DNA of 44,744 nt from positions 1 to 44,744 of the forward strand of contig VGUA01000016.1 in assembly GCA_016874535.1 (NCBI GenBank), given 5' to 3'. Made by a program: the position numbers and the translations under genes. Below, piece after piece: positions 1-15,982 of the stretch. Position 1 is the stretch's first letter; each line of letters begins with the position of its first letter. The notes beneath the pieces were generated by a model. That model was not told the DNA's origin, did no database searches, and saw nothing but the letters and a program-made list of their open reading frames with translations. This DNA comes from Gammaproteobacteria bacterium. GTDB taxonomy: Bacteria; Pseudomonadota; Gammaproteobacteria; Ga0077536.

Positions 1-436
1 GCTGTCCCAGCTTGTCCTCGGTATCCGGATTCTCGACGAGATCTGTCTGGTTGATGATGTCGACCAGATGGTTGGACTCTGCCACACCCCAGAACACCTT
101 GCCGACCCCGGTGCGCAGTTCCCACCCCTCCGCGGCGTGAATCCAGAGCAGTTCGCGGACGTCACCGTGGGTACGGCGATGATCGGATTGATCCACTCGC
201 AGGAAGGGAGTGAACACGATGGTGTCCGCACCGTCATTCGACACCCAGGACCATTCGGGCTGCACGGCGAGCGAGCCTTGTGTCCCATGCTGGCGAGGAT
301 CCGCGGCGGATTGCATGAACACCCTGCCCTCGGCCCCAGCCCAGCCGTTGAGCCTCAACTCCCCGGCACTCGCATGGGTCCCCAGCGCAACGGCCAGGAA
401 GATGGTGCCAGGGGGAACGCCCGGTGCGCGAAAGAA
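1..436 (-). CDS. Outer-membrane beta-barrel-like protein, N-terminal part (runs off window)
   Basis: The minus strand directly after the TPR gene stop has an open frame that runs to the window edge. It begins with a signal-peptide-like stretch (TIFLAVALGTHASA, likely cut before GELRLNG) and continues with alternating strand-like segments, including ELRTGVGKVFWGV and DIINQTDLVENP. I recall similar segments in uncharacterised outer-membrane proteins coded beside polysaccharide-export TPR proteins, but this is memory, not a search. No ATG, GTG or TTG lies in this frame ahead of the signal peptide as far up as about 540. The first ordinary in-frame starts are a TTG just after the predicted cleavage site, then GTG at 322 and ATG at 316, so the true start is unresolved. 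Position 436 marks only where the frame becomes non-TPR sequence. It is probably the last gene of the manC-wecB-TPR operon. The C-terminus is not visible. Confidence 0.55.
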
Positions 437-438
437 AC

Positions 439-2427
439 CTATTTCTTCTGCTCCAGGCCGGCCAGTGTCGATTCGGCTGTCTCGCGCCCGCGGAACCCGT
501 GGTCTCCTGCCAGCGCACGTGCAAGGCTCGCGCGGGCCTGGACTTCGTTGCCGGCGAGCAGATAAGCCATGCCGAGGTGGTAATGCACCATTGGTGTATC
601 CGCAAGCCAGGCCGCCGCTTTCTCGAGGAGCTCAACCGCGCGGGTAGCATCTCCCGACTTGTAGGCCACCCAGCCGCGAGTGTCGAGGAAGGCGGGATTG
701 TTGCGGGCGGCAATGCGGTCCACGAGGTCGCGGGCGCGCGCCATCGCTGCATCGTCCTCGCGGTATTCCACCAGCAACATGGCGAGATTGTTGAGTGCCA
801 GATCCGAGCTCGGATTTTCTTCGAGAACCTTCTCGTACTGCGCGATGGCTTCGTCCAGCTTGCCAGTCGCTTCCAGCTGGCCCGCAAGTGCGGTCACGAG
901 CAAGGCGGAACCACCAGTGGCTTCTATCCCTTTCTCGAGTGTGGCGAGCGCCGCTTCGTCCTCACCCAGCGCGAGTCTGGCTGCGGCCAGATTCCGGTAA
1001 AACACATCAATCCCCGGGTTGATGGCGATGGCGCGCTCGAAGGCCGCCTGTGCCTTGGCCGGCTCCCGCCCAGCGAGCAACAGCTCTCCTGACAGATTGT
1101 GCGCGACGAAATTGTCCGGATCCTGCTCGATGGCTTCGGCCAGACGTTTTTCCGCGAGCTCGGGCTTGCCCATGGCAAGATGGCTGCGAATGAGTTGTGA
1201 CAAGGGCTGGATGGAATCCGGCGCCAGCGCGAGTGCGGACTCGAACTGGGCGAGACTCGCCTCCGGCTTGTTCTCAGCCTGATAGACGAGACCGTCGTAA
1301 TGAAATCCGAGCGGGGATTCCGGCAGCGCGACCTTCAAGCGTTCCGCGATCGCATGAGCCTCCTTCCAGTTCTTCTGGAACATGCGAATCTTGAACAGCC
1401 CCTCCAGTGCGCCCTGATTGTCGGGAGAAACCTCCAGTGCCGCATCGAGGGTGGCAATCGCACCATCGAGATCCTTGTTGGTGGTCTGCAGATTGGCGAG
1501 CTCACCGCGCAATTCCAGCATCCTCGGCGCGCGCTCGATGGCTGACTGCAAGACCTTGACGGCTTCGTCCGCTTTGCCGTCTGCGAGCAGGGCCCGCGCC
1601 AGTGCGCGAATCACGCGCGGCGAATCCGGCGCCGTGTCCAGCGCCGCCCGCAAATCGGTCACGCCGTCCCCGGGTTTGCCCGCATCCACTGCGAGCGTGC
1701 CCCGCAGCAGCAGCGCTTCGGTGGTCTTGGGGGCGGCCGTCAAGACTTCAGTAACGAGTTCGAGTGCGACGGCAGGCTTGCCGGACAAGGCCCGAGCCGC
1801 GGCAAGGCGCGTGAGAGCCTCCAGCGCGATGGGCGTCTGTCGGTTTTTCTCCCGCTTGGCGACTTCCTCGTAAACCTTCGCGGCCTCCTCCGGTTGCCGC
1901 ATCAGGTCATGCAGGCGACCCAGCCCCAGGCGCAAATCCTGTGCCTCGGGAGCGTCGGCAACCAAGGCTTCGAGTCGTGAAACCGCTGCCTCATCCCCGC
2001 GCAGGCGCCGCACGAAGTCGACCAGTGCGAGCCGCGCAGGCACCGCAGCGGAATGTGGCGGGGTGATCACCTTGACCGCCTCCTCCAACGCCGCCAGTGC
2101 CTCATCATGCTCATTGCGGGCTTCGTGGAGGCCCGCAAGCTGCACCCGGTGGGGCAGCACCTTGGGTTCAAGCGTGATCAAGTTCTCGAGCACCTTGCGC
2201 GCTTTGCCCGGCTCACCGTCCTGCTGATGAATGCGCAGAAGCATGCTCTGCAGCGTCACATCACGGGGGGTCTTGTCTGCCGAGGACGCCGGAACTTTGA
2301 GCGCCTCTTCCTTCTGACCTTGTCGCACCAGCAGTGAGGCCACCATCACCGCCGAATTCACATCATCGGGGTGCTTGGTCAGGACTGTTCGGGCTGCGGC
2401 GAGTGCGCGCTCCGCACCGTCTTCCAC
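439..2427 (-). CDS. TPR-repeat protein, C-terminal part of a broken lipoprotein gene
   Basis: This long tetratricopeptide array (about 660 residues from an internal GTG) has repeated units such as ALLLRGTLAVDAGKPGDGV and LALNNLAMLLVEYREDDAA. It ends in EQKK. The reading frame is the same as that of the fragment at 2482-2886, and the two are separated by a TAA at 2482-2484 and 17 further sense codons up to the GTG. The residues across the stop (KTIAEL, stop, AKAPDAPEG) read as ordinary TPR sequence. One intact protein of about 815 residues is therefore the likely ancestor. The size, lipobox and position beside wecB/manC resemble PrsT-like TPR lipoproteins of exosortase/PEP-CTERM polysaccharide loci, but no exosortase gene is in view. 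Whether this half is translated on its own is unknown. I see no convincing ribosome binding site at 2427. Confidence 0.8.
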   Translation of the reverse strand: MEDGAERALAAARTVLTKHPDDVNSAVMVASLLVRQGQKEEALKVPASSADKTPRDVTLQSMLLRIHQQDGEPGKARKVLENLITLEPKVLPHRVQLAGLHEARNEHDEALAALEEAVKVITPPHSAAVPARLALVDFVRRLRGDEAAVSRLEALVADAPEAQDLRLGLGRLHDLMRQPEEAAKVYEEVAKREKNRQTPIALEALTRLAAARALSGKPAVALELVTEVLTAAPKTTEALLLRGTLAVDAGKPGDGVTDLRAALDTAPDSPRVIRALARALLADGKADEAVKVLQSAIERAPRMLELRGELANLQTTNKDLDGAIATLDAALEVSPDNQGALEGLFKIRMFQKNWKEAHAIAERLKVALPESPLGFHYDGLVYQAENKPEASLAQFESALALAPDSIQPLSQLIRSHLAMGKPELAEKRLAEAIEQDPDNFVAHNLSGELLLAGREPAKAQAAFERAIAINPGIDVFYRNLAAARLALGEDEAALATLEKGIEATGGSALLVTALAGQLEATGKLDEAIAQYEKVLEENPSSDLALNNLAMLLVEYREDDAAMARARDLVDRIAARNNPAFLDTRGWVAYKSGDATRAVELLEKAAAWLADTPMVHYHLGMAYLLAGNEVQARASLARALAGDHGFRGRETAESTLAGLEQKK

Positions 2428-2481
2428 GCCCAGCAGGCCTGCAGCAAGTATCGGCCCCTCGGGCGCGTCGGGTGCCTTGGC

Positions 2482-2886
2482 TTAAAGCTCCGCGATTGTC
2501 TTGCGCAAGCCCTCGGCATCACGCTTCACCAGAAGCAGTTGGCCCGTCTTGAAGCGGGCCTCGATGTTGCTCGCGTCGCCTGCGGCAACTGCGCTGAAAT
2601 TCTCGAAGGCCCCTTCCCAGTCCTGCAGCTTCTCCTGCGTTTCTGCCAGTGCGAGTCTGGCTTGCAGATTGCCGCCGTCAGCCTCCACCGCCTTCCGGAA
2701 TGCCGCGAACGCCCTCGGATAATCGGTGTCCGCGTAGGCTGCACGCCCTTCCTCCATGGGCTGCTCCACCGGGGAGCCGCCGCATCCGGTCAGTAACAGG
2801 CATAGAAGCGCATAGACGAATCCCACCCTCGGCATGAGGTTCCGAGCCGTTCCCCGGCTTTGATCAGTGATGATGCTGGTAGACAT
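2482..2886 (-). CDS. TPR lipoprotein, N-terminal part (ends at in-frame TAA)
   Basis: This 134-residue fragment starts at ATG 2886, which has AAGGAG six bases upstream. That favours it over the earlier in-frame codon at 2985, which lies inside wecB. Residues 1-30 form a lipoprotein signal with the lipobox LLTGC followed by GGSP, so the product would be lipidated and probably held in the outer membrane. Two TPR-like units follow (GRAAYADTDYPRAFAAFRKA and QARLALAETQEKLQDWEGAF). Translation ends at TAA 2482-2484, and the same frame then continues as a long TPR array. CAA, AAA or GAA changed to TAA would explain it, CAA to TAA being a simple transition. The gene lies 76 bases after wecB and is likely cotranscribed. 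The truncated product would keep its membrane anchor but lose most of its repeats. Confidence 0.8.
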   Translation of the reverse strand: MSTSIITDQSRGTARNLMPRVGFVYALLCLLLTGCGGSPVEQPMEEGRAAYADTDYPRAFAAFRKAVEADGGNLQARLALAETQEKLQDWEGAFENFSAVAAGDASNIEARFKTGQLLLVKRDAEGLRKTIAEL

Positions 2887-2962
2887 TCGATACTCCTTCA
2901 GCCAACAGTGTCCCCGCTCCGGAGGATGGATGACATCGTCGGTCTCGATTAGTCGGATTGCC

Positions 2963-4081
2963 TCAGGAGGCACGCTCGCCGGCAAGCACCGCCACGATGC
3001 GTTCGGAAGCCGCGCCGTCCCACAACGCAGGCCACGTCAGGGCACCTTGCCGGGTGCGGCCGAGCTGCCGCCGCGCGGCTTCAACGATCCGCTGAGGGTC
3101 CACGCCCACCAGCACGTTGGTACCTTCGGTCAAGGTGACCGGACGCTCGGTATTTTCGCGCAAGGTCAGGCACGGCACGCTCAGCGCCGTACTCTCCTCC
3201 TGTAGCCCGCCACTGTCGGTGAGGATCAGCGCGGCGTCGGACCACAGGTTGAGGAATTCCATGTAGGGCAGCGGTTCGGTGATCGTGATCCTGTCAGGCA
3301 GCACCAGATTGAAACGCGCGAGATTGGCCCGCGTACGCGGATGCAGCGGAAAGACCAGCGGCAGCTCAGCTGCTATCTCGCCCAGCGCGCTCGCGATTCC
3401 TGACAGGGTTTCGGCATGATCCACGTTGGACGGACGATGCAGGGTGACCACCCCATAGCGGCCCAGTGATTGCTTGAGCGGCGCGGTGGCAAAGTTCTCT
3501 CTCGTCATCCGCTGCAATTGCGACAACTGGAAAAACAGGTCGTCGATCATCACATGACCGACGAAGTGCGAGGACTGCTCGGAGCGCCCTTCCCTGCGCA
3601 GGTTTTCAAGACCGCTGGGCTCGGTCACAAAGCAGAGATCAGAGATTGCGTCGGTCACAAGCCGGTTGATTTCCTCGGGCATGCGCCGGTCACCACTGCG
3701 CAAACCGGCTTCTACATGGGCCACGCGGATGCCAAGTTTCTTGGCCACAATCGAGCAGGCCAGCGTGGAATTGACGTCCCCCACCACCATCACGAGATCT
3801 GGCGCAAATTCCTCGCACCAGCTTTCGAACGCCACCATGATGCGAGCCGTCTGTTCGGCATGACTGCCGCCACCGGCACCCATGTGAAAATCGGGCGTGG
3901 GAATTCCCAGCTCTTCGAAGAACACATCGCTCATGCCGTGGTCATAGTGCTGGCCGGTATGCACCAGCCGCCACTCGAAGCGCTCCTCGCGGGCCTTCAG
4001 GGCGCGGAGGATGGGCGCGACTTTCATGAAGTTGGGGCGGGCACCGGCCACCAGCACCACGCGCAGGCGGGGATGGCTCAT
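2963..4081 (-). CDS. wecB: UDP-N-acetylglucosamine 2-epimerase (non-hydrolysing)
   Basis: This enzyme interconverts UDP-GlcNAc and UDP-ManNAc in the cytoplasm and supplies ManNAc-type sugars for surface polysaccharide. The 372 residues match the family's usual length. Visible landmarks are GARPNFMK near the N-terminus, HTGQHYD around residue 41, EAGLRSGD, HRPSNVD, and the C-terminal DSGGLQEE with TERPVT that binds the nucleotide. Its ATG overlaps the manC stop as ATGA (4078-4081), which implies translational coupling. Pairing with manC points to a polysaccharide containing both mannose- and ManNAc-derived residues. No glycosyltransferase is in view, so the polymer cannot be named. The symbol follows the family; the pathway assignment (enterobacterial antigen or other exopolysaccharide) is open. 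Confidence 0.93.
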   Translation of the reverse strand: MSHPRLRVVLVAGARPNFMKVAPILRALKAREERFEWRLVHTGQHYDHGMSDVFFEELGIPTPDFHMGAGGGSHAEQTARIMVAFESWCEEFAPDLVMVVGDVNSTLACSIVAKKLGIRVAHVEAGLRSGDRRMPEEINRLVTDAISDLCFVTEPSGLENLRREGRSEQSSHFVGHVMIDDLFFQLSQLQRMTRENFATAPLKQSLGRYGVVTLHRPSNVDHAETLSGIASALGEIAAELPLVFPLHPRTRANLARFNLVLPDRITITEPLPYMEFLNLWSDAALILTDSGGLQEESTALSVPCLTLRENTERPVTLTEGTNVLVGVDPQRIVEAARRQLGRTRQGALTWPALWDGAASERIVAVLAGERAS

Positions 4082-5535
4082 ACGCGCTGGTACTTGTCCT
4101 CGAAACGCACGATGTCGTCTTCACCCAGATAAGGCCCCGACTGGACTTCGATGATTTCGAGCGGAATCTTGCCCGGGTTTTCCAGGCGATGGGTTTCGCC
4201 CAAGGGAATGTAGGTCGACTGGTTTTCACTCAGCAGGAAGGCTTCTTCCCCACGTGTCACCCTCGCGGTGCCCCTCACCACTATCCAGTGCTCGGCGCGG
4301 TGGTGGTGCATCTGCAGGGACAGGGAGGCTCCCGGCTTGACCATGATGCGTTTCACCTGGAAACGCGCGCCATTGTCGACACCCTCATAGGACCCCCAAG
4401 GACGGAAAACCCGCCGGTGCAGCAGACGCTCATCCCTGCCCTGCGTGGCCAGCCAGTCGACGATGCCCTTGACGTCCTGGGCGCGGGCCCTGGGAGCCAC
4501 CATGACTGCATCCGGCGTCTCCACGATCACGAGATCCTCGCAGCCCACCGCCGCCACCAAGCGGCTTTCGGCAAAAATCAGGTTGTCGCGCGAGTCGATC
4601 GCACAGACGTCACCGCGGGTGACGTTGCCATCGGGCGTGCGCGGCGACACCTCCCACAAGCTGGACCAGGAACCGACGTCCGACCAGCCTGCGTCCAGGC
4701 TGACCACGGCAGTGCGCTCGGGCTGTGCCGCCACCAGCGGCTCCATCACCGCATAGTCGATCGAGTCGGCAGGACAGTTCAGGAAGGCATCCCGCTCGAG
4801 GCGCAGGAACTCGCCATCCTGCCCCGCCGCCTCCGTGGCCTTCTTGCAGGCCGCCAGCATGTCGGGTTGCAAGGTCCCGAGTGCCTCCAGCCATACGCTG
4901 GCCTTGAACAGAAAGATTCCGGAGTTCCAGCGATAGCCGCCATCGGCCAGATAGGCCTCCGCAAGCTCCAGGGCCGGTTTTTCCTTGAAAGCATTGAGGA
5001 CATTGGCCTGCGGTGAGGACGCCTGCCCGGCCAGGGCGGTCCCGAGCTGCAGATAGCCATAGCCGGTCTCTGGCGCAGTCGGGACCACACCGAAGGTGAC
5101 CAGTCTGCCGGCACCCGCGAGTTCCCTCCCCCGCTCCACCGCAGCCATGAAAGCCAGCGGCTCATTGATGAGGTGATCCGCCGGCATCATCAGCAGCAAG
5201 GGATCTGTCCCGGCCGCCCGAGCCGCCAGCGCCGCGCAAGTGATGGCTGGCGCGGTGTTGCGCCCCACGGGCTCCAACAGGATCTTCGCGAACGGCAGGC
5301 CCAACTGGCGGGCCTGCTCGCCCACCAGGAACCGGTGTTCCTCGTTGCAGACCACGACCGGGGGCAGAAAATGGGCGGGAAAGCGCCCTCCCACTGTCAG
5401 ACGACGGAGGGTGCCCTGCAGCAGCGTGACGTCCTCCTCCACCTTGAGGAACTGCTTGGGATAGTGTCCGCGCGAGAGGGGCCAGAGGCGTGTTCCGCCT
5501 CCACCGGCGAGGACGACAGGAAGAATGTCATGCAT
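4078..5535 (-). CDS. manC: Mannose-1-phosphate guanylyltransferase / mannose-6-phosphate isomerase
   Basis: This is a bifunctional type II PMI/GMP enzyme (AlgA/ManC/CpsB family) that makes GDP-mannose. The N-terminal nucleotidyltransferase opens with VVLAGGGGTRLWPLSR and contains KEKP and RWNSGIFLF. The C-terminal cupin isomerase holds RPWGSYE, the metal-binding LQMHHHRAEHW and EVQSGPYLGEDDIVR. From ATG 5535 the protein has 485 residues and starts MHDILPVVLAGG, the usual family start. ATG 5562 is also possible, and neither has a strong ribosome binding site. It is the first gene of the minus-strand polysaccharide operon and overlaps wecB by ATGA. It diverges from gspC. Confidence 0.92.
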   Translation of the reverse strand: MHDILPVVLAGGGGTRLWPLSRGHYPKQFLKVEEDVTLLQGTLRRLTVGGRFPAHFLPPVVVCNEEHRFLVGEQARQLGLPFAKILLEPVGRNTAPAITCAALAARAAGTDPLLLMMPADHLINEPLAFMAAVERGRELAGAGRLVTFGVVPTAPETGYGYLQLGTALAGQASSPQANVLNAFKEKPALELAEAYLADGGYRWNSGIFLFKASVWLEALGTLQPDMLAACKKATEAAGQDGEFLRLERDAFLNCPADSIDYAVMEPLVAAQPERTAVVSLDAGWSDVGSWSSLWEVSPRTPDGNVTRGDVCAIDSRDNLIFAESRLVAAVGCEDLVIVETPDAVMVAPRARAQDVKGIVDWLATQGRDERLLHRRVFRPWGSYEGVDNGARFQVKRIMVKPGASLSLQMHHHRAEHWIVVRGTARVTRGEEAFLLSENQSTYIPLGETHRLENPGKIPLEIIEVQSGPYLGEDDIVRFEDKYQRV

Positions 5536-5628
5536 GGAGTCGTTTGCCTGATGAGTGTTCATGACTGTGTTTCGGTCGCCGTGCCGGATTTCTTTAAGAA
5601 CGCCCGGTCCGGGGTCGCAGTATTCCAT

Positions 5629-5767
5629 GCGGATCGGTGAAAATCATTGATATTTTACGGGCTTGTAACATGTTTCTGATTTGCGCTCTGGCCTTCGGAT
5701 CCGTACCATCGCGGGTATTGCCGGCTGCCTCCCAAGGCACCTGCCCAATCATGGAGAACAAGCTTTC
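5629..5767. promoter_or_regulatory. Divergent promoter region between manC and gspC
   Basis: About 139 bases separate the longest manC reading frame from gspC. The part at 5641-5682 is clearly AT-rich against the surrounding DNA and includes TTGATA at 5647-5652 and the palindrome AACATGTT near 5667-5674. These are candidate promoter or operator elements for one or both directions. No confident -10/-35 pair can be assigned by eye. Confidence 0.4.
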
Positions 5768-6433
5768 GTGAGCTACCGCCTCTCGCCCGAGACCTTGCCC
5801 GGCTGGAGTCCGGTCCTGATGAGCGGCGGCCTGCTGGTGCTCACGCTCGTCCACCACCTCGCAGGCACGGAGGCACTGAACCCGGACACCTCGGTCCCTG
5901 AACCGATGCCCGTTGCTACAGGTCCAGCGGCCCGGCCGGTTAATCTCGAGCGCCTGCGCGAATGGTCCTTGTTCGGCAAATCCGCTGATGCGGAAAGTGA
6001 CGCTGCCATGGCAGGGGCCCCGGATCTTGCGGCTGCAGTGGTCCTGCCGGAGGAAGACGAGAACACCGTGCTGCCGGCCACTGCGCTGGACGTCAAGGTC
6101 CAGGGCATTGCCTATTCGCGGGATCGTTCGCGCGCCTATGCCATCCTTCAAGTCGAGGGTGGCGCGCCACGCGAGTTCCGCCCCGGCGAGCCTCTCAAGG
6201 AAGGCGTGGAGTTGCGGGCCATCCGCCCTCTCGAGGTGGTCATCAAACATCAGGGACGTCTGGAGTCGGCCGCGCTGCCGGTGGCGCCCGGTCCGATGAC
6301 CTCGGAGGAAGAGTCCACAGACATGAGTGCCGGCGCCGGACAGGGCCGGCCAACCCCTTTCAGCATCCTGGGCGGTGATCAACCTCCCGGGAGCTGGCGA
6401 CGCCTCGACTCGCTTCGAGGCGCACCACAATGA
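5768..6433 (+). CDS. gspC: Type II secretion system inner-membrane protein GspC
   Basis: GspC links the inner-membrane platform to the GspD secretin. From GTG 5768 it has 221 residues, with GGAG 11 bases upstream. It has a short cytoplasmic start, one membrane segment (about residues 17-32) and the homology region recognisable from LREWSLFGK and from LDVKVQGIAY through the C-terminal strands. After this region there is only a Ser/Gly/Pro-rich tail of about 50 residues, with no PDZ or coiled-coil domain, so it is a short GspC. It is followed after 36 bases by gspD, and gspE and gspF complete this half of the locus. The more upstream TTG 5681 lacks support. Confidence 0.85.
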   Translation: MSYRLSPETLPGWSPVLMSGGLLVLTLVHHLAGTEALNPDTSVPEPMPVATGPAARPVNLERLREWSLFGKSADAESDAAMAGAPDLAAAVVLPEEDENTVLPATALDVKVQGIAYSRDRSRAYAILQVEGGAPREFRPGEPLKEGVELRAIRPLEVVIKHQGRLESAALPVAPGPMTSEEESTDMSAGAGQGRPTPFSILGGDQPPGSWRRLDSLRGAPQ

Positions 6434-6469
6434 AAATGATAAACGCTGAATATCCACGGAGCCGATCGC

Positions 6470-8419
6470 ATGCCATTGCGACGAACACGATTTCTGTCCT
6501 CGCCCCTCGGTGGGGCGCTGCTGGGCGTCCTCATTGTCACATCATCCGCCGCCTCGGCGCAGGAGGCGGCGGGGGCAGGAATCACCCCGGCGGATGACGG
6601 CAGCAAGGCGGTCACCCTCAATCTCAAGAACGCCGACATCCAAGCCTTCATCACGGCCGTTTCGGAGCTGACCGGCAAGAACTTCATCATCGACCCTCGC
6701 GTGAAAGGTCAGGTCACCGTCGTGTCCTCGGCCCCGACCGACCCGGATGCGCTGTATGAAGTATTTCTCTCCGTGCTCAAGGTGAACGGCTTCGTGGCCG
6801 TGCCCAGCGGCAAGGTCATCAAGATCTTGCCGGACATCAACGGTCGCCAGGAAGGTGGGGTTGGCGTGGTCTCGGAACGGGTCGGGGCCACGGAGCAGGT
6901 CACGACGGCCGTCATCCCCACCACCTACGTGAATGCAGCAGAGCTGGTTCCCGTGCTGCGCCCCCTGTTGCCCCAGGAGGCCCATCTGGCGGCAACCGCC
7001 CGTGCCGACGCGCTGGTGATGGCCGACACGGCCGCCAACGTGAACCGCATCATGCGCATCGTGCGCGAAATCGACAGGGACAACGCGGACTTCATCGAGG
7101 TGATAGCCCTGCGCCATGCCAAGGCCATCCCGCTGGTCGCCACGGTGCAGCAGCTGCTGACTTCCAATCCCGAGAATCCCGGACTCGCGCCGCCCATTGC
7201 GGCGGATGAGCGCTCAAATTCCGTGCTCATCGGGGGCGCGCCGGCGGAAAAGATGCGGATGCGCACCCTGATTCGCGAAATGGATGTGCCGCGGAGTTCG
7301 CGCAACGAGCTAATCGATGTGATCTACTTGCGGTACGCCCTCGCGGAGGAGATCGTGCCGCTGCTGCAATCCATCGGCAATCGGGCCGAAGGCGGTGCCG
7401 GCGGCGAAGGTGGCGGACCTTCAGGCGCCGGGGTGCGGGGCGCATTCGAAATCCAGGCGGATAAATCCACCAACTCTATTATCGTGCTGGCCGAGCCGGA
7501 ACTGATGGAGAAGGTCAGGGCGGTCGTCGAGAAACTGGACATCCGTCGCGCGCAGGTGCTGGTGGAAGGTCTGGTCGCGGAAGTCTCCAACAACAAGTCG
7601 GATGAACTCGGCGTGCAATGGACCACCTCGGTACCGAACCGGGACGGCTTTTACGCGGGCTCACGCTTCCCCGGGCTCGACTCGGGCGGTATTCCCGACC
7701 CCTTCGCCGCCAATTCCGCGCCCAGCCTGCTGACGGGTCTGACGCTCGGCTATTTCTCCGCCGGCGATCTGCGCACGCTGATCCGGGCGTTGAGCGGCGA
7801 CCAGTACACCAACGTGCTCTCCACGCCCACCCTGATGACCCTGGACAACGCCGAAGCCGAAATCGTTGTCGGCCAGAACGTGCCCTTCGTCACGGGGCAG
7901 TTCACCAACAACACCACCACGCCCGACAATCCTTTCCAGACGATCGAACGCCAGGACGTCGGCATCCTGCTGAAAGTAAAGCCCCGCATCAACAATGCGG
8001 ATACGCTGACCCTCGAAATCCAGCAGGAGGTCTCCAGTGTCGACCGCGACACGACGGGCGCGGATCTCGTCACCAACAAGCGCTCTATCAAGACCTCGGT
8101 GCTGGTGGATGACAAGCAGATCATCGTGCTGGGCGGACTCATCAGCGACGAAATGCGCGAGAACGAAACGCGCATCCCCCTCATCGGTGAAATTCCGGGC
8201 ATAGGCGCTCTCTTTCGCAACAGTTCCAGCGATTTCACGAAGACCAATCTGATGGTGTTCCTGCGCCCCTCGATCGTGCGTGACCAGGCAACCAATCGCG
8301 CGCTCACCTCCTCCCGCTACGAAGATATTCGCGGCAAGCAGGAGAAGCAGGATCAGGAGCACCGCTTCTTCCTGCGCGATCCGGGACCGCGCCTGCCCGC
8401 GGATGGTCTGGTCGAGTAG
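6470..8419 (+). CDS. gspD: Type II secretion system secretin GspD
   Basis: This is the outer-membrane secretin that forms the exit channel. The 649 residues begin with a signal peptide probably cut at ASA|QEA. N0 to N3 domains follow; visible landmarks include VTLNLKNADIQAFITAVSE, NFIIDPRVKGQVTV and the repeated KH-like segments with VIALRHAKA and DVIYLRYALAEEI. A Gly-rich loop (GGAGGEGGGPSGAG) interrupts N3. The C-terminal secretin domain contains VLSTPTLMTLDN, VPFVTGQ and VLGGLISDE, and the last part carries LMVFLRPSIVRD. CGGAG lies upstream of the ATG. It is the second gene of gspCDEF. Confidence 0.95.
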   Translation: MPLRRTRFLSSPLGGALLGVLIVTSSAASAQEAAGAGITPADDGSKAVTLNLKNADIQAFITAVSELTGKNFIIDPRVKGQVTVVSSAPTDPDALYEVFLSVLKVNGFVAVPSGKVIKILPDINGRQEGGVGVVSERVGATEQVTTAVIPTTYVNAAELVPVLRPLLPQEAHLAATARADALVMADTAANVNRIMRIVREIDRDNADFIEVIALRHAKAIPLVATVQQLLTSNPENPGLAPPIAADERSNSVLIGGAPAEKMRMRTLIREMDVPRSSRNELIDVIYLRYALAEEIVPLLQSIGNRAEGGAGGEGGGPSGAGVRGAFEIQADKSTNSIIVLAEPELMEKVRAVVEKLDIRRAQVLVEGLVAEVSNNKSDELGVQWTTSVPNRDGFYAGSRFPGLDSGGIPDPFAANSAPSLLTGLTLGYFSAGDLRTLIRALSGDQYTNVLSTPTLMTLDNAEAEIVVGQNVPFVTGQFTNNTTTPDNPFQTIERQDVGILLKVKPRINNADTLTLEIQQEVSSVDRDTTGADLVTNKRSIKTSVLVDDKQIIVLGGLISDEMRENETRIPLIGEIPGIGALFRNSSSDFTKTNLMVFLRPSIVRDQATNRALTSSRYEDIRGKQEKQDQEHRFFLRDPGPRLPADGLVE

Positions 8420-8431
8420 GAGTCGTATCGC

Positions 8432-9895
8432 GTGAAGCTGCCTTTCTCCTATGCACGGCGCCATGGAGTGCTGGTGGACGCCATGCATGGGCAGGCCCTC
8501 TCGGTGCTGGTGACGCCCCGCACGCCTGCGGAAGCCATCCTCGAGGTGCGGCGCATGGCCGCCTGTCCCCTGCACTTGCAGGAGATCACCGAAGCCGAGT
8601 TCGACCGCCAGTTGCAGTCGACCTACGAGGCAGGCGAAAGCGCTTCCGAGCAGATGATGGCGGATCTCGGCAGCGACGCCAGTTTTGCCGATCTGGCAAA
8701 TGTGCTCGGTGAACCCGCGGATCTGCTCGATGCCGATGACGATGCACCGATCATCCGGCTCATCAATGTGCTTTTTTCGGAGGCCATCCGCCAGAACGCG
8801 TCCGACATTCACATCGAACCCTTCGAGACCCGGCTGCTCATCCGCTTGCGGGTCGACGGCGTGCTGCGGGAGGTGATGTCGCCACCAGCCGCCATTGCGC
8901 CGCTGGTCTCCTCGCGCATCAAGATCATGGCCAAGCTCGATATTGCCGAGAAGCGGCTGCCCCAGGACGGCCGCATCTCCATCAAGATTGCCAATCGGCC
9001 GGTGGACGTGCGCGTATCCACCATGCCCTCCGGTCACGGCGAGCGTGTGGTTCTTCGCCTCCTCGACAAACAGGCCGGCCGACTGGCGCTGGAACACATC
9101 GGCATGGATCCCGAAACCACAGCGACCCTGGATGCCATCATCCACAAACCTCACGGCATCTTCCTGGTGACCGGGCCGACGGGTTCGGGCAAGACCACCA
9201 CACTCTACGCGTCACTTGCGCGATTGAACGAGGGCAGTCGCAACATCATGACAGTGGAAGATCCCATCGAGTATTTCATCGAAGGGATCGCCCAGACCCA
9301 GGTCAACACCAAGGTGGACATGAGCTTCGCCCGCGGGCTCCGGGCCATCCTGCGCCAGGATCCGGACGTGGTGATGGTCGGTGAAATCCGCGATCTGGAA
9401 ACCGCACAGATTTCCATCCAGGCGAGTCTCACCGGACATCTGGTGTTCTCCACCCTGCACACCAATACCGCCATCGGCGCCATCACGCGCCTGCGTGACA
9501 TGGGTGCCGAACCTTTCCTGCTGGCTTACAGCCTCGTCGGTGTACTGGCCCAGCGTCTGGTGCGCCTGCTCTGCCCTCACTGCCGCCAGCCCGGTGTGCT
9601 CGAAGTGGCAGCGGCAGCCCGTATGGGCGCGGTCGATCGCGCGGACTCGCCCATCTTCACCGCCCGGGGCTGCGCCCACTGCAACCAATCCGGCTATCGT
9701 GGCCGCACCGCAATCTACGAACTTGTGGTGTTCGACGAGACCCTGCGCCAGATGGTGCACGACGGGGCCAGCGAGGCCGCGCTGGAAAAGCATGCGCGTA
9801 CGCGCTCCATGGGCATCATGGACAATGGTCTGCAAAAGGTGCTTGCCGGCCAGACCTCGCCTGAAGAACTGCTGCGCGTGATGCAGTCCCTCTGA
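8432..9895 (+). CDS. gspE: Type II secretion system ATPase GspE
   Basis: This is the cytoplasmic motor that drives pseudopilus assembly. The 487 residues start at GTG 8432. Its ribosome binding site AGGAG overlaps the gspD stop codon, so translation is probably coupled. Motifs: Walker A GPTGSGKT (residues 248-255), Asp box, Walker B VVMVGE (313-318), His box HLVFSTLHTN, and a zinc-binding tetracysteine at C381, C384, C414 and C417 (CPHC and CAHC). The N-terminal domain (about 1-100) would bind GspL. PilB and other relatives have similar motifs, but the operon context fixes the assignment. Confidence 0.95.
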   Translation: MKLPFSYARRHGVLVDAMHGQALSVLVTPRTPAEAILEVRRMAACPLHLQEITEAEFDRQLQSTYEAGESASEQMMADLGSDASFADLANVLGEPADLLDADDDAPIIRLINVLFSEAIRQNASDIHIEPFETRLLIRLRVDGVLREVMSPPAAIAPLVSSRIKIMAKLDIAEKRLPQDGRISIKIANRPVDVRVSTMPSGHGERVVLRLLDKQAGRLALEHIGMDPETTATLDAIIHKPHGIFLVTGPTGSGKTTTLYASLARLNEGSRNIMTVEDPIEYFIEGIAQTQVNTKVDMSFARGLRAILRQDPDVVMVGEIRDLETAQISIQASLTGHLVFSTLHTNTAIGAITRLRDMGAEPFLLAYSLVGVLAQRLVRLLCPHCRQPGVLEVAAAARMGAVDRADSPIFTARGCAHCNQSGYRGRTAIYELVVFDETLRQMVHDGASEAALEKHARTRSMGIMDNGLQKVLAGQTSPEELLRVMQSL

Positions 9896-9914
9896 AGTCC
9901 GGACCGCATCTCTG

Positions 9915-11129
9915 ATGGCCGCCTTCGACTACACCGCCCTCACGCCGGACGGCACGCAGCAACGCGGCGTGATCGAGGCGGATTCGGAACGCCAGGCGCG
10001 CAAACAGCTCCGCGAACAGAAACTCACTCCTCTCAATGTAAGTCTCGGCAAGAGCCGCACCGGCATGCGCCTGCCGGGACTGCGCTTGGGTGGACCACGT
10101 CTCGGTGGTGAGGAACTCGCCCTGTTCACCCGACTGCTGGGAACCTTGAGCGCCTCCGGACTTCCGCTGGATGACGTGCTCACTGCCATTGCGCGCCAGG
10201 CAGATTCTCGCAGCGTGAACCGGGTTGCACTGGGGATCCGGGCCAGAATCCTGGAGGGACAGTCGCTCGCCGTCGGGATGGAGGAGTTTCCGCAAATCTT
10301 TCCGGAGGACTATCGCGCGACGGTGGGTGCCGGGGAGCGCACCCGGCACCTGCCCATGGTGCTGCAGCGCCTCGCCGGCCATGTCGAAAATCGCGACCGC
10401 ATGAACAAGCGCCTCTGGCTTGCGATGGTCTATCCGGGAGTGTTGAGCGTCACCGCAGTGCTGGTGGTGACGGGCCTGCTCGCCTACGTGGTGCCTGAAG
10501 TCGTGAAAGTGTTCATCGACATGAAGCAGGAATTACCGCTGCTCACGCGGGGACTCATCGCGCTTTCGGCGTTTGCCCGTGATTATGGGCTGGCGTTGCT
10601 GCTCGCGCTGCTTGCCGCCGTGCAAGGCCTGCGCTGGTTCCTGCAGAAGGACAAGCCCCGCTTTCTGTTCCACCGGTTCCTGCTGGCGGTCCCGGTGCTG
10701 GGCAAGCTGCTGGTGAGCAGCGAGACAGCACGCTTTGCACGCATGCTCGCCATCATGCTCGGCAGCAGTGTCGACATGCTCGATGCGCTGGGCATCGCGG
10801 CGAAATCCGTGACCCTGTCGCCACTGCAAAAACACCTGAGGGATGTGATCGAGGAGGTTCGTGAAGGCAGTGCCCTAAGCCGTGCGCTCGTCAAATCCTC
10901 CCTGGTTCCCCCGCTGTTGCCTCATCTCATCGGCAGCGGCGAAGCCTCGGGCAATCTGGTCGAGATGCTGGATACCGGTGCGGAATCCTTCGAATTCAAG
11001 GTCCAGAACCAGCTTTCGCTGCTGCTCGGCCTGCTGGAACCGCTGCTCATCCTTTTGATGGGGGCCATAGTGCTCACCATCGTCATCGCAATCCTGCTGC
11101 CCATCTTCGAGATGAACCAGCTGGTGTGA
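9915..11129 (+). CDS. gspF: Type II secretion system inner-membrane platform protein GspF
   Basis: This polytopic protein of the inner-membrane platform has 404 residues, the normal size. It begins MAAFDYTALTPDGTQQ, typical of GspF. It carries two T2SSF cytoplasmic domains, each with an LLGTLSASGLPLDDVL-like or MLAIMLGSSVDMLDAL helix pair, and three membrane segments near residues 170-195, 215-235 and 370-395. It is the last gene of the plus-strand half. Its stop codon lies a single base from the stop of the convergent gspM, leaving no room for a terminator between them. Confidence 0.95.
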   Translation: MAAFDYTALTPDGTQQRGVIEADSERQARKQLREQKLTPLNVSLGKSRTGMRLPGLRLGGPRLGGEELALFTRLLGTLSASGLPLDDVLTAIARQADSRSVNRVALGIRARILEGQSLAVGMEEFPQIFPEDYRATVGAGERTRHLPMVLQRLAGHVENRDRMNKRLWLAMVYPGVLSVTAVLVVTGLLAYVVPEVVKVFIDMKQELPLLTRGLIALSAFARDYGLALLLALLAAVQGLRWFLQKDKPRFLFHRFLLAVPVLGKLLVSSETARFARMLAIMLGSSVDMLDALGIAAKSVTLSPLQKHLRDVIEEVREGSALSRALVKSSLVPPLLPHLIGSGEASGNLVEMLDTGAESFEFKVQNQLSLLLGLLEPLLILLMGAIVLTIVIAILLPIFEMNQLV

Positions 11130-11130
11130 C

Positions 11131-11628
11131 TCAGGGCGCGCTGGTCGCTACCAGCGTCAGACTTGCGTTGATGCGGCCCGGGGCACTGCCATCGCTGTCC
11201 ACCACCAGCCGCTGGGCCTCCACCCCCGATGCGGTCCTGAGCGCGATCAGCCAGGCCACGAGTGTGTCGAACGGCACACCCCTCACCACCACCGAAGCCT
11301 CCCCCGAGCCATTGGGCACGATGCGCTCGATGCCGGAGGAGAGGCCGCGTGCGCCTGCCGAGGCATTGAGCAATGCCAGCAGGGTCTGGCCTTCTGCCAG
11401 TCGTCCCCGGGGCGCACCGCCCTCGCGCAATGCGGCCGCTTCCTCGCCGAGGCGCTGCAGCGACTGCAACGCCCGGGCCTGCCCGGCAAGCTCATCCTGC
11501 AGTCGGCCGTGGCGCAGCTGCAGTGGTTCCACCACCAACAGGAACAACAACGCCACCAGTGCGGCTGCCGAGGCGAGGCTGACCAGGAGGCGTTCGCGTG
11601 GATTCAGGCCCTGCCACCAGACGTTCAT
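11131..11628 (-). CDS. gspM: Type II secretion system protein GspM
   Basis: This bitopic inner-membrane protein partners GspL in the assembly platform. The 165 residues start MNVWWQGLNPRERLLV, followed by a membrane segment (about 15-33), a coiled-coil-prone stretch (RLQDELAGQARALQSLQRLGEE region) and a small periplasmic ferredoxin-like domain with GEASVVVRGVPFDTLVAWL. It overlaps gspL by ATGA at 11625-11628. It is the last gene of the minus-strand half; no gspN follows. Confidence 0.9.
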   Translation of the reverse strand: MNVWWQGLNPRERLLVSLASAAALVALLFLLVVEPLQLRHGRLQDELAGQARALQSLQRLGEEAAALREGGAPRGRLAEGQTLLALLNASAGARGLSSGIERIVPNGSGEASVVVRGVPFDTLVAWLIALRTASGVEAQRLVVDSDGSAPGRINASLTLVATSAP

Positions 11629-12818
11629 GAACCCTGCTCCTTCCTGCGCACACGGAGATTGCCGACCACGCCGCTTTCGCGGTTCTCCACCGAGAGGATT
11701 TCTATGACCACGGGCGAGTCGGCATCAGCACCGAGCCCTTCGAGGCTCGCGATATCCGGGGCCAGGGTCTGGACACTCATCACGCCGTTCGCGTAGTTGA
11801 CGTTGAGCAGGCGGAACCCGCCTGTCCCCATGTTCGCGGCGAGACCGAGTCCGTGCAGCAGTTCGAGCACCGAGGCTTCCTCTCCACCCAGGGCCCGCAA
11901 TGCGGCTACTGCCTGCGCGGCCTGGACTTCGGCGTTCACAATCCGGGTGATTTCAGGGAAAGTCCCCCGCATGATTTCGGCTTGCGCCTCGCGCAGGGCC
12001 GCGGTTTGCGTCTCGAGCCGCGCATTTCCAACAAGCAGAAAGCCCAGATGGACTGCCAGTGTCAGGGCCAGCAGGCTGGCGGCCCAAACCCACGCCGCCC
12101 GGCGTGCATTGCGCGGTCGCGGGAAATTGTCGGGTAGCCAGTCTATGCCGGCCGATTCGGTGGCTGCCTTGGCGAACAGCCGCCAGGGGCCACTGACCAG
12201 TGATTGACGGGACACTGGCAAGCTCTGGAAGGCCGCGGGCAACGCACCATCGCCAAACTGCACGATGCGCTCCGGGGCAGCTTCCGCGAGCTTGCGCGAG
12301 AGCACTTCAGTAGCCAGTTCACGTTCCACCACAAAGCCCTGTCGCGCCGCAGTCCTGACCAGCAAGCGGTTGTCTTCCAGCAGCACCGACCACTGCCCCG
12401 GCGACCAGGGCAGGGCGAGATAGTCCGGTCTGACTCCGCGCAGCGCGACACGGGCCTCCGCCAGCGGTGCCAGCAAGGCATCAAGCTCGTGCCTGCGCGT
12501 GTAGCCGACGGTCCTTACCCCGGCCTCCTCGGCCGGGCCGCAGGTGACGTAGAGCGCTTCCAGTTCTTCCGTGACATCGTCCTCTATGGCGAACGGCGCG
12601 GCGATCCGAGCCTGTCGCTGCGATTTCGCCGGAATCGCCGCGGGTAGCGTGCCCACGCTGCGACCATCGAGCAACAGGGTCATCTCGCGCGCCGCACAGG
12701 CGTCGATCAAGGACTGGACGCCGCCCCGCGCCGGCGTGCCTGGGGCACCGTCGCGATCCACCTCCGCCCACTCGAATATCGCCCCCGGCAAGGCTCGCGC
12801 AACGAGTGCCGCGGTCAT
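11625..12818 (-). CDS. gspL: Type II secretion system protein GspL
   Basis: GspL connects the GspE motor to the membrane platform. The 397 residues comprise a cytoplasmic actin-like domain (about 1-240, with LLLDGRSVGTLPAAIP and LALPWSPGQWSVLLED), one membrane segment (about 250-270, AAWVWAASLLALTLAVHLGF) and a periplasmic ferredoxin-like C-terminus. The length is normal for the family. It overlaps both neighbours by four bases (ATGA), the pattern of a tightly coupled gspGHIJKLM operon. Confidence 0.9.
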   Translation of the reverse strand: MTAALVARALPGAIFEWAEVDRDGAPGTPARGGVQSLIDACAAREMTLLLDGRSVGTLPAAIPAKSQRQARIAAPFAIEDDVTEELEALYVTCGPAEEAGVRTVGYTRRHELDALLAPLAEARVALRGVRPDYLALPWSPGQWSVLLEDNRLLVRTAARQGFVVERELATEVLSRKLAEAAPERIVQFGDGALPAAFQSLPVSRQSLVSGPWRLFAKAATESAGIDWLPDNFPRPRNARRAAWVWAASLLALTLAVHLGFLLVGNARLETQTAALREAQAEIMRGTFPEITRIVNAEVQAAQAVAALRALGGEEASVLELLHGLGLAANMGTGGFRLLNVNYANGVMSVQTLAPDIASLEGLGADADSPVVIEILSVENRESGVVGNLRVRRKEQGS

Positions 12819-14020
12819 GGCTCGGCATCCGGAAGTGCGAGGACGAGTACCTCCTGCTCGCGGCCGAGGCGTCGTGCCTTGTTCTGGTTGCGGGTGATCA
12901 AGCTCAAGGTTGTGTGCTCGAAACGGGGGCTGCGGACGGTGGTCCTGAGTTCAAAAAAGTCACTGGCAAGCGCAAGGTCGCCTGCCTCCAGTTGCGCGTA
13001 TTGTAGCAACGGATGCTTGCGGAAAGCGTCCAGTGTCATGAATGGCTGGGTTTCGCGGGCCCGGATCAGCACGGTCGCAGTGCTGCTGCTCACGGCGGGC
13101 CCCAGGCTCATGAGCACTTCCTTGGGCGCCGTGTTCACATTCAAAGGGGTCGCATTCGGCAGGCAGACCACGAACGGAGCAAGGCGCTCGAAGATTTCAT
13201 CCGTCATGCCCTTGACGAGGCGCAGCTCATGCACTGAGGCAAAAGGCCGGTTTGCCGTGCGGTAGGCGGGTTTCTGCCGGGAGTAGTAGTCATCCTCCGC
13301 GCCATTGGGAAAACGGGTCTCGGAGTCGGGATCCACCCAGTCGATAATCGCCTGGATGGGTGTTTCATCCAGATCGAGAGCCTTGAACAGCAGGCGGAAC
13401 CGTCGCTCCGCCGCCTCGCCCGGCGCAGCCGGCGTGGGAGACCCTCCGCGCGTTGCCCCCCGCGCGGGCGTGGTAGCACCTTCGTCCTGCGTCTCGCCCT
13501 CGTTCGAGAATTGCCCGGCGTCCTCCGGAGGGAAGCTGGTCCCGGTCTGGAACTCGTCGCCGAGCACTGCCGGTGGATCGTCCATGGCTTCGGCGGTATC
13601 CAGATCCAGGCGGTTTGCGACAGCGCCAGCGCCCGCTGCATTGCCTCCGGCAAACGCGGGATCGGGGGAAAGATTGGTCAGATTGAAAAGCCCCTGTAAA
13701 TCCCGCAGGCCGCCTTCCGCCTCCATGCCCAGATCTTCCGCGCGCAGACGGACCACGGCCCACTCCTCCGTCGTCACGTCCTGCCGCCCCAGCGCGCCAT
13801 CTTTTTCCAGCAGGCGCACCGCATCGCGTTCAAGCCTCGCGGCCATCAGCGCCGCCCGGTCCGCTTCGAGCAGGTTGTTGATCCTGCGCCCTGACAGGTA
13901 CTGATCGGTGGCAAGCACGACCACTGCGGCGGTCATCAGGGACGCCAGCACCATCGCCGTGATGAGGGCGATGCCGCGCTCGGCGGATGGCGAAGTCGAT
14001 CCCGGTCGAGTCTTGCGCAT
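12815..14020 (-). CDS. gspK: Type II secretion system minor pseudopilin GspK
   Basis: This minor pseudopilin at the pseudopilus tip is much larger than the others (401 residues), as usual for GspK. The prepilin peptidase site is ERG|IALITAMVL at about residue 16. Position +5 is Thr rather than Glu, which is normal for GspK. The body contains helix-hairpin-helix-like segments (LRLVKGMTDEIFERLAPFV) and the metal-site region near DWVDPD. An Ala/Gly/Thr-rich insert lies around residues 185-215. I chose ATG 14020, just after the gspJ stop, rather than GTG 14038, which lies inside gspJ. Confidence 0.9.
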   Translation of the reverse strand: MRKTRPGSTSPSAERGIALITAMVLASLMTAAVVVLATDQYLSGRRINNLLEADRAALMAARLERDAVRLLEKDGALGRQDVTTEEWAVVRLRAEDLGMEAEGGLRDLQGLFNLTNLSPDPAFAGGNAAGAGAVANRLDLDTAEAMDDPPAVLGDEFQTGTSFPPEDAGQFSNEGETQDEGATTPARGATRGGSPTPAAPGEAAERRFRLLFKALDLDETPIQAIIDWVDPDSETRFPNGAEDDYYSRQKPAYRTANRPFASVHELRLVKGMTDEIFERLAPFVVCLPNATPLNVNTAPKEVLMSLGPAVSSSTATVLIRARETQPFMTLDAFRKHPLLQYAQLEAGDLALASDFFELRTTVRSPRFEHTTLSLITRNQNKARRLGREQEVLVLALPDAEP

Positions 14021-14024
14021 GAGA

Positions 14025-14642
14025 TTACCCCGCCCCACCCGGACGCAGGATGCGCTCGAGGCTGCGGCCGTCTGCGAAACGCACGAGCACGCCTACCGCG
14101 CGCGGCAAGTCAGTCCGGGAGGCCGGTCCCGCCGCGCCTGCCCAGTCGTCCTGCCAGCTCTCGGCGCCATGAAACCGCAGCTGGACCGACTCCACCCCGG
14201 ACAACAGGGTCCGCTCGCGATAACCAACCGATGAAACGCGGTCAAGCGCGTCCCATTCCCTGCGCAACAAGCGCCCCTCGAGCAGCCGATATTCGACCCG
14301 GCGAAGGTCGGGCAAGCCCCGCGATGGAGCTGGCCAGGGACTGTGGCGCGTGAACGCCAGCAATACTTCCTCACCGGTGCGACGTCGCAGCGCATCCACG
14401 GGATCCCCCAGTTCATCGCGCACGGGTCTCGCCACCAGTTGCTCGAGATCCTGCTGCATCTGGGCCATCCCGCGGACACGGGCATGAAAGACCCCGGTAC
14501 GGTTGTCGAGCAGGGTGCGCGCGGCGAGGAAATTGCGCAGGCCCTCATAGGCGAGCACTGCCATCACGCTGAAGATCGCAATTGCGACCAGCACTTCGAG
14601 CAGAGTGAAGCCCGCGCTCGACCGATGCCGCGTCCACCTCAT
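14025..14642 (-). CDS. gspJ: Type II secretion system minor pseudopilin GspJ
   Basis: This minor pseudopilin of the tip complex has 205 residues and a prepilin peptidase site SSAG|FTLLEVLVAIAIF with Glu at +5 of the mature protein. The family landmark MAQMQQDLEQLVARPVRD is present. It overlaps gspI by ATGA (14639-14642), and its stop lies four bases before the gspK ATG. Confidence 0.92.
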   Translation of the reverse strand: MRWTRHRSSAGFTLLEVLVAIAIFSVMAVLAYEGLRNFLAARTLLDNRTGVFHARVRGMAQMQQDLEQLVARPVRDELGDPVDALRRRTGEEVLLAFTRHSPWPAPSRGLPDLRRVEYRLLEGRLLRREWDALDRVSSVGYRERTLLSGVESVQLRFHGAESWQDDWAGAAGPASRTDLPRAVGVLVRFADGRSLERILRPGGAG

Positions 14643-15046
14643 GGCGCAGGAGCCTCGAGCCGGGCAAGGATGGTGTCCGACGTCGCCGGATCCGCGACTT
14701 CAACCACCACCCGCCGGGCGGTCGACGGTTCGCCTTCGATCACCAGAAACTCCGGCAGCTCTTCCTCGAGCAGGCTGTAGCGTACCCGGAAGGTACGCCC
14801 GTAGAGCAAAGCTTCCCGCGGTTCTGGGGGAGTCCATGGCTGGTTCTCCGGCGCAGGCTGCAGGGTGATTTCAGTGGCGGCATTGCTTGCAACCCAGTGC
14901 GCGAGGATGCGCAGCTCCTGGGCTTCTTCCTGACGGGCGGCGCCGCGGATGCCTACGCTCCCGGCATAGAGCACGGCCGCGAGGACCACGAGGGCAACCA
15001 GCACCTCGACCAGGGTGAATCCCCATGCGCGCTTGCAGGAGTTCAA
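14639..15046 (-). CDS. gspI: Type II secretion system minor pseudopilin GspI
   Basis: This small minor pseudopilin (135 residues) has the processing site AWG|FTLVEVLVALVVLAAV and Glu at mature position +5. A globular strand-rich domain follows (FRVRYSLLEEELPEFLVIE). GspI nucleates the tip complex with J and K. It overlaps gspH by ATGA (15043-15046) and gspJ likewise. Confidence 0.92.
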   Translation of the reverse strand: MNSCKRAWGFTLVEVLVALVVLAAVLYAGSVGIRGAARQEEAQELRILAHWVASNAATEITLQPAPENQPWTPPEPREALLYGRTFRVRYSLLEEELPEFLVIEGEPSTARRVVVEVADPATSDTILARLEAPAP

Positions 15047-15534
15047 TTGAACTCCACGCGGTAGCCGTCATCCTCCGGCAGAAGTCGCGCCCGACGCTCG
15101 CCGGGAAGCAGTCGCAATTCCATGCCGAGAGCCTCCACATTGCCGTCCGGGAAGAAGATCGCCGGCACCCGCGAGCCGAGTGCCGCGCCGTCGTCGCTGC
15201 CGGTGACACGCAAATCCATGCCGGGTGGGAGGCGGCGCACGCGGTACAGGGCATCTGTTCCGGGACGGCGCCATGATCCCTCTTGCCAGCGTTGCAGGCC
15301 GTAGCCTTCCGGCCCGAGGATCAGTGCCACAGGGCGGCTGGTTATCATCGCTTCGTCGGCCGCAACCCGGGTCAGCTGCTGCAACACGCGGGCGGTATCC
15401 CTGAGTGCTGCTCCCCGCCCGCCATCACCCACTGCAAGGCGTACCATGTTGGCCAGAATACCGACCAGCACCACCACCACCATCACCTCGAGCAGGGTGA
15501 AGCCTCGCGGCAGGGACGGTCGTAAGAGGGGCAT
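15043..15534 (-). CDS. gspH: Type II secretion system minor pseudopilin GspH
   Basis: From ATG 15534 this is a 163-residue pseudopilin, MPLLRPSLPRG|FTLLEVMVVVVLVG, with Glu at +5. The frame is open further upstream to 15732, but that part lies inside gspG and has no pseudopilin character, so ATG 15534, 10 bases after the gspG stop, is the better start. The C-terminal domain (VALILGPEGYGLQRW, IFFPDGNVEALGMELRL) matches the GspH fold. Confidence 0.9.
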   Translation of the reverse strand: MPLLRPSLPRGFTLLEVMVVVVLVGILANMVRLAVGDGGRGAALRDTARVLQQLTRVAADEAMITSRPVALILGPEGYGLQRWQEGSWRRPGTDALYRVRRLPPGMDLRVTGSDDGAALGSRVPAIFFPDGNVEALGMELRLLPGERRARLLPEDDGYRVEFN

Positions 15535-15544
15535 CAGGGCGCGC

Positions 15545-15982
15545 TCACTCCTCGTCCCAGTTGCCGAGATCCTTGGCGTTGCCTGTTCCACCCAATGCGC
15601 CGTCCGCGCCCAGCGAGAACAGGTCGTATTCCCCGCGCTGTCCGGGCGAAAGGTACTGGTAGTCAGCGCCCCAGGGGTCCACCGGCAACTTCGCAAGATA
15701 GCCGCCTTCGCGCCAGTTGGCCCCCGAAGCAAGGCTGGCGGGCTTGGTGACCAGTGCCTCCAGTCCCTGCGCCGTGGTCGGATAGGTGAAATTGTCCAGC
15801 TTGTAGAGATCCAGCGCCGCGCCGATCGCGCGGAGATCCTGCTGTGTCTTGATCACTCGGGCCTCGTCGGGCCTGCTCATGATCCTGGGCACCACGATCG
15901 CGGCCAAAATGCCGAGAATCACGACCACGACCATCACCTCTATGAGGGTAAATCCGCGTTGCGGGCGCATGCTGTGTTCCAT
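15545..15982 (-). CDS. gspG: Type II secretion system major pseudopilin GspG
   Basis: This is the main pseudopilus subunit (145 residues). The processing site is PQRG|FTLIEVMVVVVILGILA with Glu at +5. The C-terminal part has the conserved TTAQGLEALV, the DPWGADYQYLSPG loop and the calcium-site region FSLGADGALGG...DLGNW. It is the first gene of the minus-strand half, so this promoter probably drives gspGHIJKLM. ATG 15970 (MRPQRG) is an equally good start by eye. Confidence 0.95.
   Translation of the reverse strand: MEHSMRPQRGFTLIEVMVVVVILGILAAIVVPRIMSRPDEARVIKTQQDLRAIGAALDLYKLDNFTYPTTAQGLEALVTKPASLASGANWREGGYLAKLPVDPWGADYQYLSPGQRGEYDLFSLGADGALGGTGNAKDLGNWDEE

Follow-up and report, generated by a model that had tools for sequence, protein, structure and literature searches.

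The name PrsT was given to TPR lipoproteins that share their phylogenetic profile with a PEP-CTERM regulatory site (PMC1569441). A study in Aquincola reports that a prsT insertion mutant forms no flocs and that plasmid-borne prsT restores them (PMC9850573). XrtD / VPLPA-CTERM loci (TIGR04152, TIGR03370) are the second system with which the gene described here can be compared; our literature search found nothing linking XrtD and the TPR protein. As a lead only, we presume a possible likeness to the TPR-plus-barrel polysaccharide exporters of the AlgK/AlgE or PgaA type: in our case too the neighbours of a TPR lipoprotein are sugar-nucleotide genes and what may be an outer-membrane protein, although the partner has neither a Pfam family nor a significant PDB sequence match.

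Here, we describe a minus-strand TPR lipoprotein gene of 815 codons (2886 to 442, with the terminal stop TAG at 441-439) that carries an in-frame stop at codon 135. It lies in a window of 44,744 nt, the whole stretch of DNA that was analysed, which is contig VGUA01000016.1 of a draft genome (97.61% complete, 189 contigs) from an environmental gammaproteobacterium; the nearest contig end is 2.4 kb from the stop. The original prediction, that two open frames in the same phase are parted solely by this TAA and that TPR sequence continues on either side of it, holds: read on the minus strand, 2886-439 passes from the upstream sense codons through the TAA and the downstream sense codons to the terminal TAG without any second lesion, TPR families are recognised on both sides, and the orthologue in the closest relative (genome G003), a single uninterrupted frame, aligns gap-free through codon 135. 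It had also placed the lipobox and ribosome binding site in the upstream part and almost all repeats in the downstream part, and this is what we find, with one significant TPR_19 stretch before the stop and nine after it (Table 1). Because the frame has one internal stop in 815 codons (four other frames have 15-19 and the fifth has 7), G+C at the third codon position is continuous (0.73 before the stop, 0.75 and 0.73 after it) and the uninterrupted G003 gene aligns without gaps, the presence of one gene broken in two is beyond chance. A scan for promoters and terminators found no promoter-like site and about as many terminator-like sites as in shuffled sequence, and a search of the genome for a second copy gave a single match at E 1e-20 among the best 17 of 30 candidates.

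Table 1. Coordinates of the interrupted TPR lipoprotein gene and its neighbours in the window
Feature	Position	Strand	Remarks
N-terminal part of ~390-residue Pfam-less protein	2..373	-	Cut by contig end; remainder at end of contig C55
Downstream open part of TPR gene	439..2481	-	680 sense codons, nearly all TPR repeats, terminal TAG 441-439
GTG, first ATG/GTG/TTG in frame past TAA	2425..2427	-	Best upstream GGAGG match 4/5
In-frame TAA, codon 135	2482..2484	-	Column holds a residue in 15/15 aligned relatives
Upstream open part of TPR gene	2485..2886	-	Lipoprotein signal peptide (lipobox LTGC, Cys35) and a single significant TPR_19 stretch in 134 codons
RBS-like AAGGAG	2893..2898	-	Precedes ATG 2886; closely similar stretch before the G003 ATG
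wecB, UDP-N-acetylglucosamine 2-epimerase	2963..4081	-	Intact; upstream neighbour of TPR gene
manC-type mannose-1-phosphate guanylyltransferase / mannose-6-phosphate isomerase	4078..5628	-	Intact; 4-base overlap with wecB

The best NCBIfam match of the protein, with the stop read as X, is PrsT (TIGR02917). Like PrsT, it has a lipoprotein signal and a long TPR array, and it is encoded in a sugar-nucleotide gene context. The two differ in that its score of 268.1 bits falls below the curated cut-off of 312.2, that its orthologues adjoin XrtD rather than XrtA, and that the copy studied here has a stop at codon 135 in a genome without a detected exosortase. The G003 orthologue reaches 276.2 bits, and the nine orthologues scanned range from 276 to 334 bits, five of them above the cut-off and four below. 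Co-occurrence with EpsH/exosortase and PrsK, which goes with PrsT, is also missing, as PF09721, TIGR04152 and TIGR02916 gave no match in the draft genome. A sequence search of the PDB with the lipoprotein returned general TPR proteins, natural and designed. Judged by its sequence, the protein resembles a divergent PrsT-like protein and cannot be filed as PrsT.

What do the orthologues accompany in other genomes? Of the 58 genomes searched, our own among them, 24 match the read-through protein at E 1e-20, and we took as orthologue-bearing the 17 genomes with a match of at least 350 bits plus G002, where a 60%-identical fragment lies at a contig edge (18/58). XrtD (TIGR04152) occurs in 12 of the 58, and 11 of these 12 have the TPR orthologue (Fisher p 1.4e-6, uncorrected for kinship). 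In ten of the eleven, the orthologue (at least 350 bits) and XrtD share a contig and are 1.8-8.6 kb apart, and this vicinity is the likeness to XrtD / VPLPA-CTERM loci; all ten neighbouring exosortases are XrtD over the cut-off in the NCBIfam classification. In the eleventh (G043) XrtD is not on the contig of the TPR gene, which itself lies at a contig end, and the twelfth XrtD genome (G045) has a weaker homologue 1.8 kb from XrtD. PrsK and the XrtA deacetylase are lacking in G005 although XrtD is present. Seven orthologue-bearing genomes have no detected XrtD: this genome, G003, G002, G011, G018, G022 and G032. In G022, an XrtD fragment (query residues 36-124; G022:C27:11000-13206, L131) that escaped classification lies beside an intact TPR gene, so that either the exosortase is truncated there or the assembly may be at fault.

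The difference from the XrtD / VPLPA-CTERM loci is that XrtD and VPLPA-CTERM substrates were found neither in this genome nor in G003, so that in these two the TPR gene is without an XrtD within the ~10 kb seen in the ten relatives. Our draft genome yielded no exosortase of any kind (PF09721), no XrtD (TIGR04152), no VPLPA-CTERM substrate and no PrsK (TIGR02916); the XrtA deacetylase was matched below the cut-off only, and PEP-CTERM gave one match over it. As the genome is a draft, these absences are not proof. Since XrtD was not detected, the system served by the orthologues elsewhere has apparently been lost already. G003 still has an XrtA locus, on a separate contig of 14.3 kb for which no DNA match was found in our genome among the best 40 of 60 candidates; a control piece of the same length, taken from elsewhere in the G003 contigs, matches at 76%, which tests the sensitivity of the search and not the XrtA locus itself. 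In other genomes without a detected exosortase the TPR gene has fared in different ways. The orthologue of G011 (L017, G011:C27) is missing some 230 residues at its start, and the preceding 1.5 kb shows no homology in any frame, which fits with decay. An 827-residue TPR frame of 295 bits in G057 and the contig-edge fragment in G002 stay open, so exosortase loss does not force decay of the TPR gene.

The gene downstream of the TPR gene is broken between contigs, with its N-terminal third at the end of our contig (C16) and the remainder at the extreme end of C55 (L103, 16450-17249), the two matches meeting at query residue 126. Homologues of this ~390-residue protein (L046:9017-10219; L081-L100) are present in 30 of the 58 genomes, and in 11 of the 18 TPR-bearing genomes, this one included, the match starts less than 400 bases from the end of the TPR match. 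In G005, the gene is found in two overlapping pieces (G005:C35:1871-2656 and 2646-3008), suggesting a frameshift. We suspect that the protein is an outer-membrane barrel; it belongs to no Pfam family, a sequence search of the PDB gave no significant match, and the single-sequence structure model (mean pLDDT 31) was discarded as worthless. Beyond manC, type II secretion genes occupy 5681-15732 of the window in two convergent blocks, gspH, J, K and L on the minus strand and, on the plus strand, what we take from position to be gspC-D-E-F. The plus-strand frame 11126-11707 between the blocks is probably spurious antisense, since the corresponding G003 frame has three stops.

The comparison with close relatives that had been proposed as a check was carried out. 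The gene of G003, the best match outside this genome, is 77% identical and syntenic, and like ours it follows manC-wecB. DNA identity with G003 is about 76% over ~28 kb that begin at the gene after the TPR gene, take in the type II secretion genes and extend to ileS; the search for related contigs gave 13 loci, the only close one being this same contig of G003. In a 16-row alignment, in which the start of the G032 row is cut by a contig end, all 15 relatives are uninterrupted and the stop in the codon-135 column is confined to this genome, early enough (codon 135 of 815) to remove most of the product. The 15 relatives show three kinds of residue at this column, none of them glutamine, and the proposed origin of the stop by a CAA to TAA change therefore finds no support in homology. 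A recurring internal stop in G016, G022, G032 and G035 was considered and rejected, since the stops listed for all four are terminal stops; in G028, a TAG is listed within a weak match (84.6 bits).

How old is the interruption? Against G003, dN/dS is 0.138 before the stop and 0.095 after it, and 18 other gene rows, with values of 0.027-0.348, span both; dS is at least 1 for most rows and accordingly rough. Neither ileS nor the remainder of the window is among these rows, a nineteenth row (the probably antisense frame 11126-11707, 0.467) was dropped, and the one stop listed for moxR is that gene's own terminal one. Protein change has not accelerated: 313 conserved columns after the stop hold 10 private changes in this genome and 10 in G003, and 67 conserved columns before it hold 3 and 2, respectively. 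Relative-rate tests on the part after the stop were balanced with 13 of 14 outgroups, the exception being G004 (34 versus 19, chi-square 4.25, uncorrected for multiple tests). A freely drifting gene should gain about 65 new stops per substitution per site; at the 5% level the lack of a second stop therefore puts the age below ~0.046 substitutions per site, assuming a transition weight of 2 and ignoring indels. A frame that is still open, a normal dN/dS and protein change at an unaltered pace point to a recent stop, and suit a false one equally well.

The explanation that we hold to be probable, with real room for doubt, is that the TAA is an evolutionarily recent nonsense mutation in a PrsT-like TPR lipoprotein gene whose function has been lost after its usual partner system had already gone. 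To judge by the lipobox, the ancestral product would have been an envelope lipoprotein whose long TPR array probably made it a scaffold linking polysaccharide machinery and an outer-membrane partner. With the TAA in place, ribosomes would release a 134-residue lipoprotein fragment, and the 680-codon rest would stay untranslated or be restarted without the signal peptide, and it is from this that we infer loss of function, with relaxed need as its likely cause. Rather unlikely, in our opinion, though the strongest of the competing accounts, is one in which the TAA stems from a mistake in consensus or assembly, or from a minority strain, and the gene is intact in the organism. A lone base-level defect in a clean gene, under purifying selection and without acceleration, is what such an error would look like, and the draft, with its many contigs and an end 2.4 kb away, is of the kind in which it might occur. 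Against this, the stop lies away from the contig ends, and in the 18 other gene rows compared with G003 our genome shows no internal stop, so nothing points to sequence of poor quality overall.

We regard as very improbable a bypass of the stop, by a suppressor tRNA, programmed readthrough or a restart at GTG 2427, that would yield some functional product. The 680 open codons downstream with their normal dN/dS would suit it, as would the position of this GTG 54 bases past the stop, with a 4/5 match to GGAGG upstream; a restarted product would, on the other hand, have neither signal peptide nor lipobox. An alternative code or suppressor was rejected because no UUA anticodon was found among the 40 tRNA genes of the draft genome, all of which have assigned anticodons, though this set is incomplete, as the tRNAs for Trp and Ile are missing from it. 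Nor does the column show the conserved stop that recoding would also leave, as none of the 15 aligned relatives has one there. The stop codons of 24 window genes comprise 21 TGA, two TAG and one TAA, and since this last one ends gspJ, TAA works as a terminator here. That the gene is an old, neutrally decaying pseudogene is scarcely credible, because the age limit of ~0.046 substitutions per site is so small beside a dS of ~1.6 to G003, even if the orthologues' usual partner system is, as far as detected, missing from the genome.

What does the recent nonsense mutation, as we prefer to read the TAA, mean for the cell? The original prediction had suggested that polysaccharide export could be lost or rewired, which our analysis does not establish: the gene adjoins manC and wecB, and prsT is needed for flocs in Aquincola, but the XrtD partner was not detected in the genome. 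Polysaccharide export may or may not be affected, as manC, wecB and the ~390-residue neighbour look intact from their sequences, apart from the contig break in the last. We put forward, tentatively and with more doubt than belief, that the TPR lipoprotein makes up a module with its ~390-residue neighbour, in the service of XrtD systems but able to outlive them. Such a module would have persisted without XrtD beside manC-wecB under purifying selection in the lineage to which G003 and our genome belong, with an exosortase-independent role in the envelope or in polysaccharide, and would here be in the course of being lost after XrtA. It counts against our main reading that the gene does not seem to have been useless without XrtD: purifying selection has apparently acted on it ever since the two genomes parted, and G003 has no XrtD either. 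A single recent nonsense mutation is in itself ordinary, and its context is more useful. An XrtD-associated PrsT-like protein that is apparently under purifying selection where XrtD is not detected suggests a job independent of the exosortase, and G003, with XrtA and an intact gene, set against this genome, with no detected exosortase and a broken gene, provides a natural comparison for the function of PrsT-like proteins.
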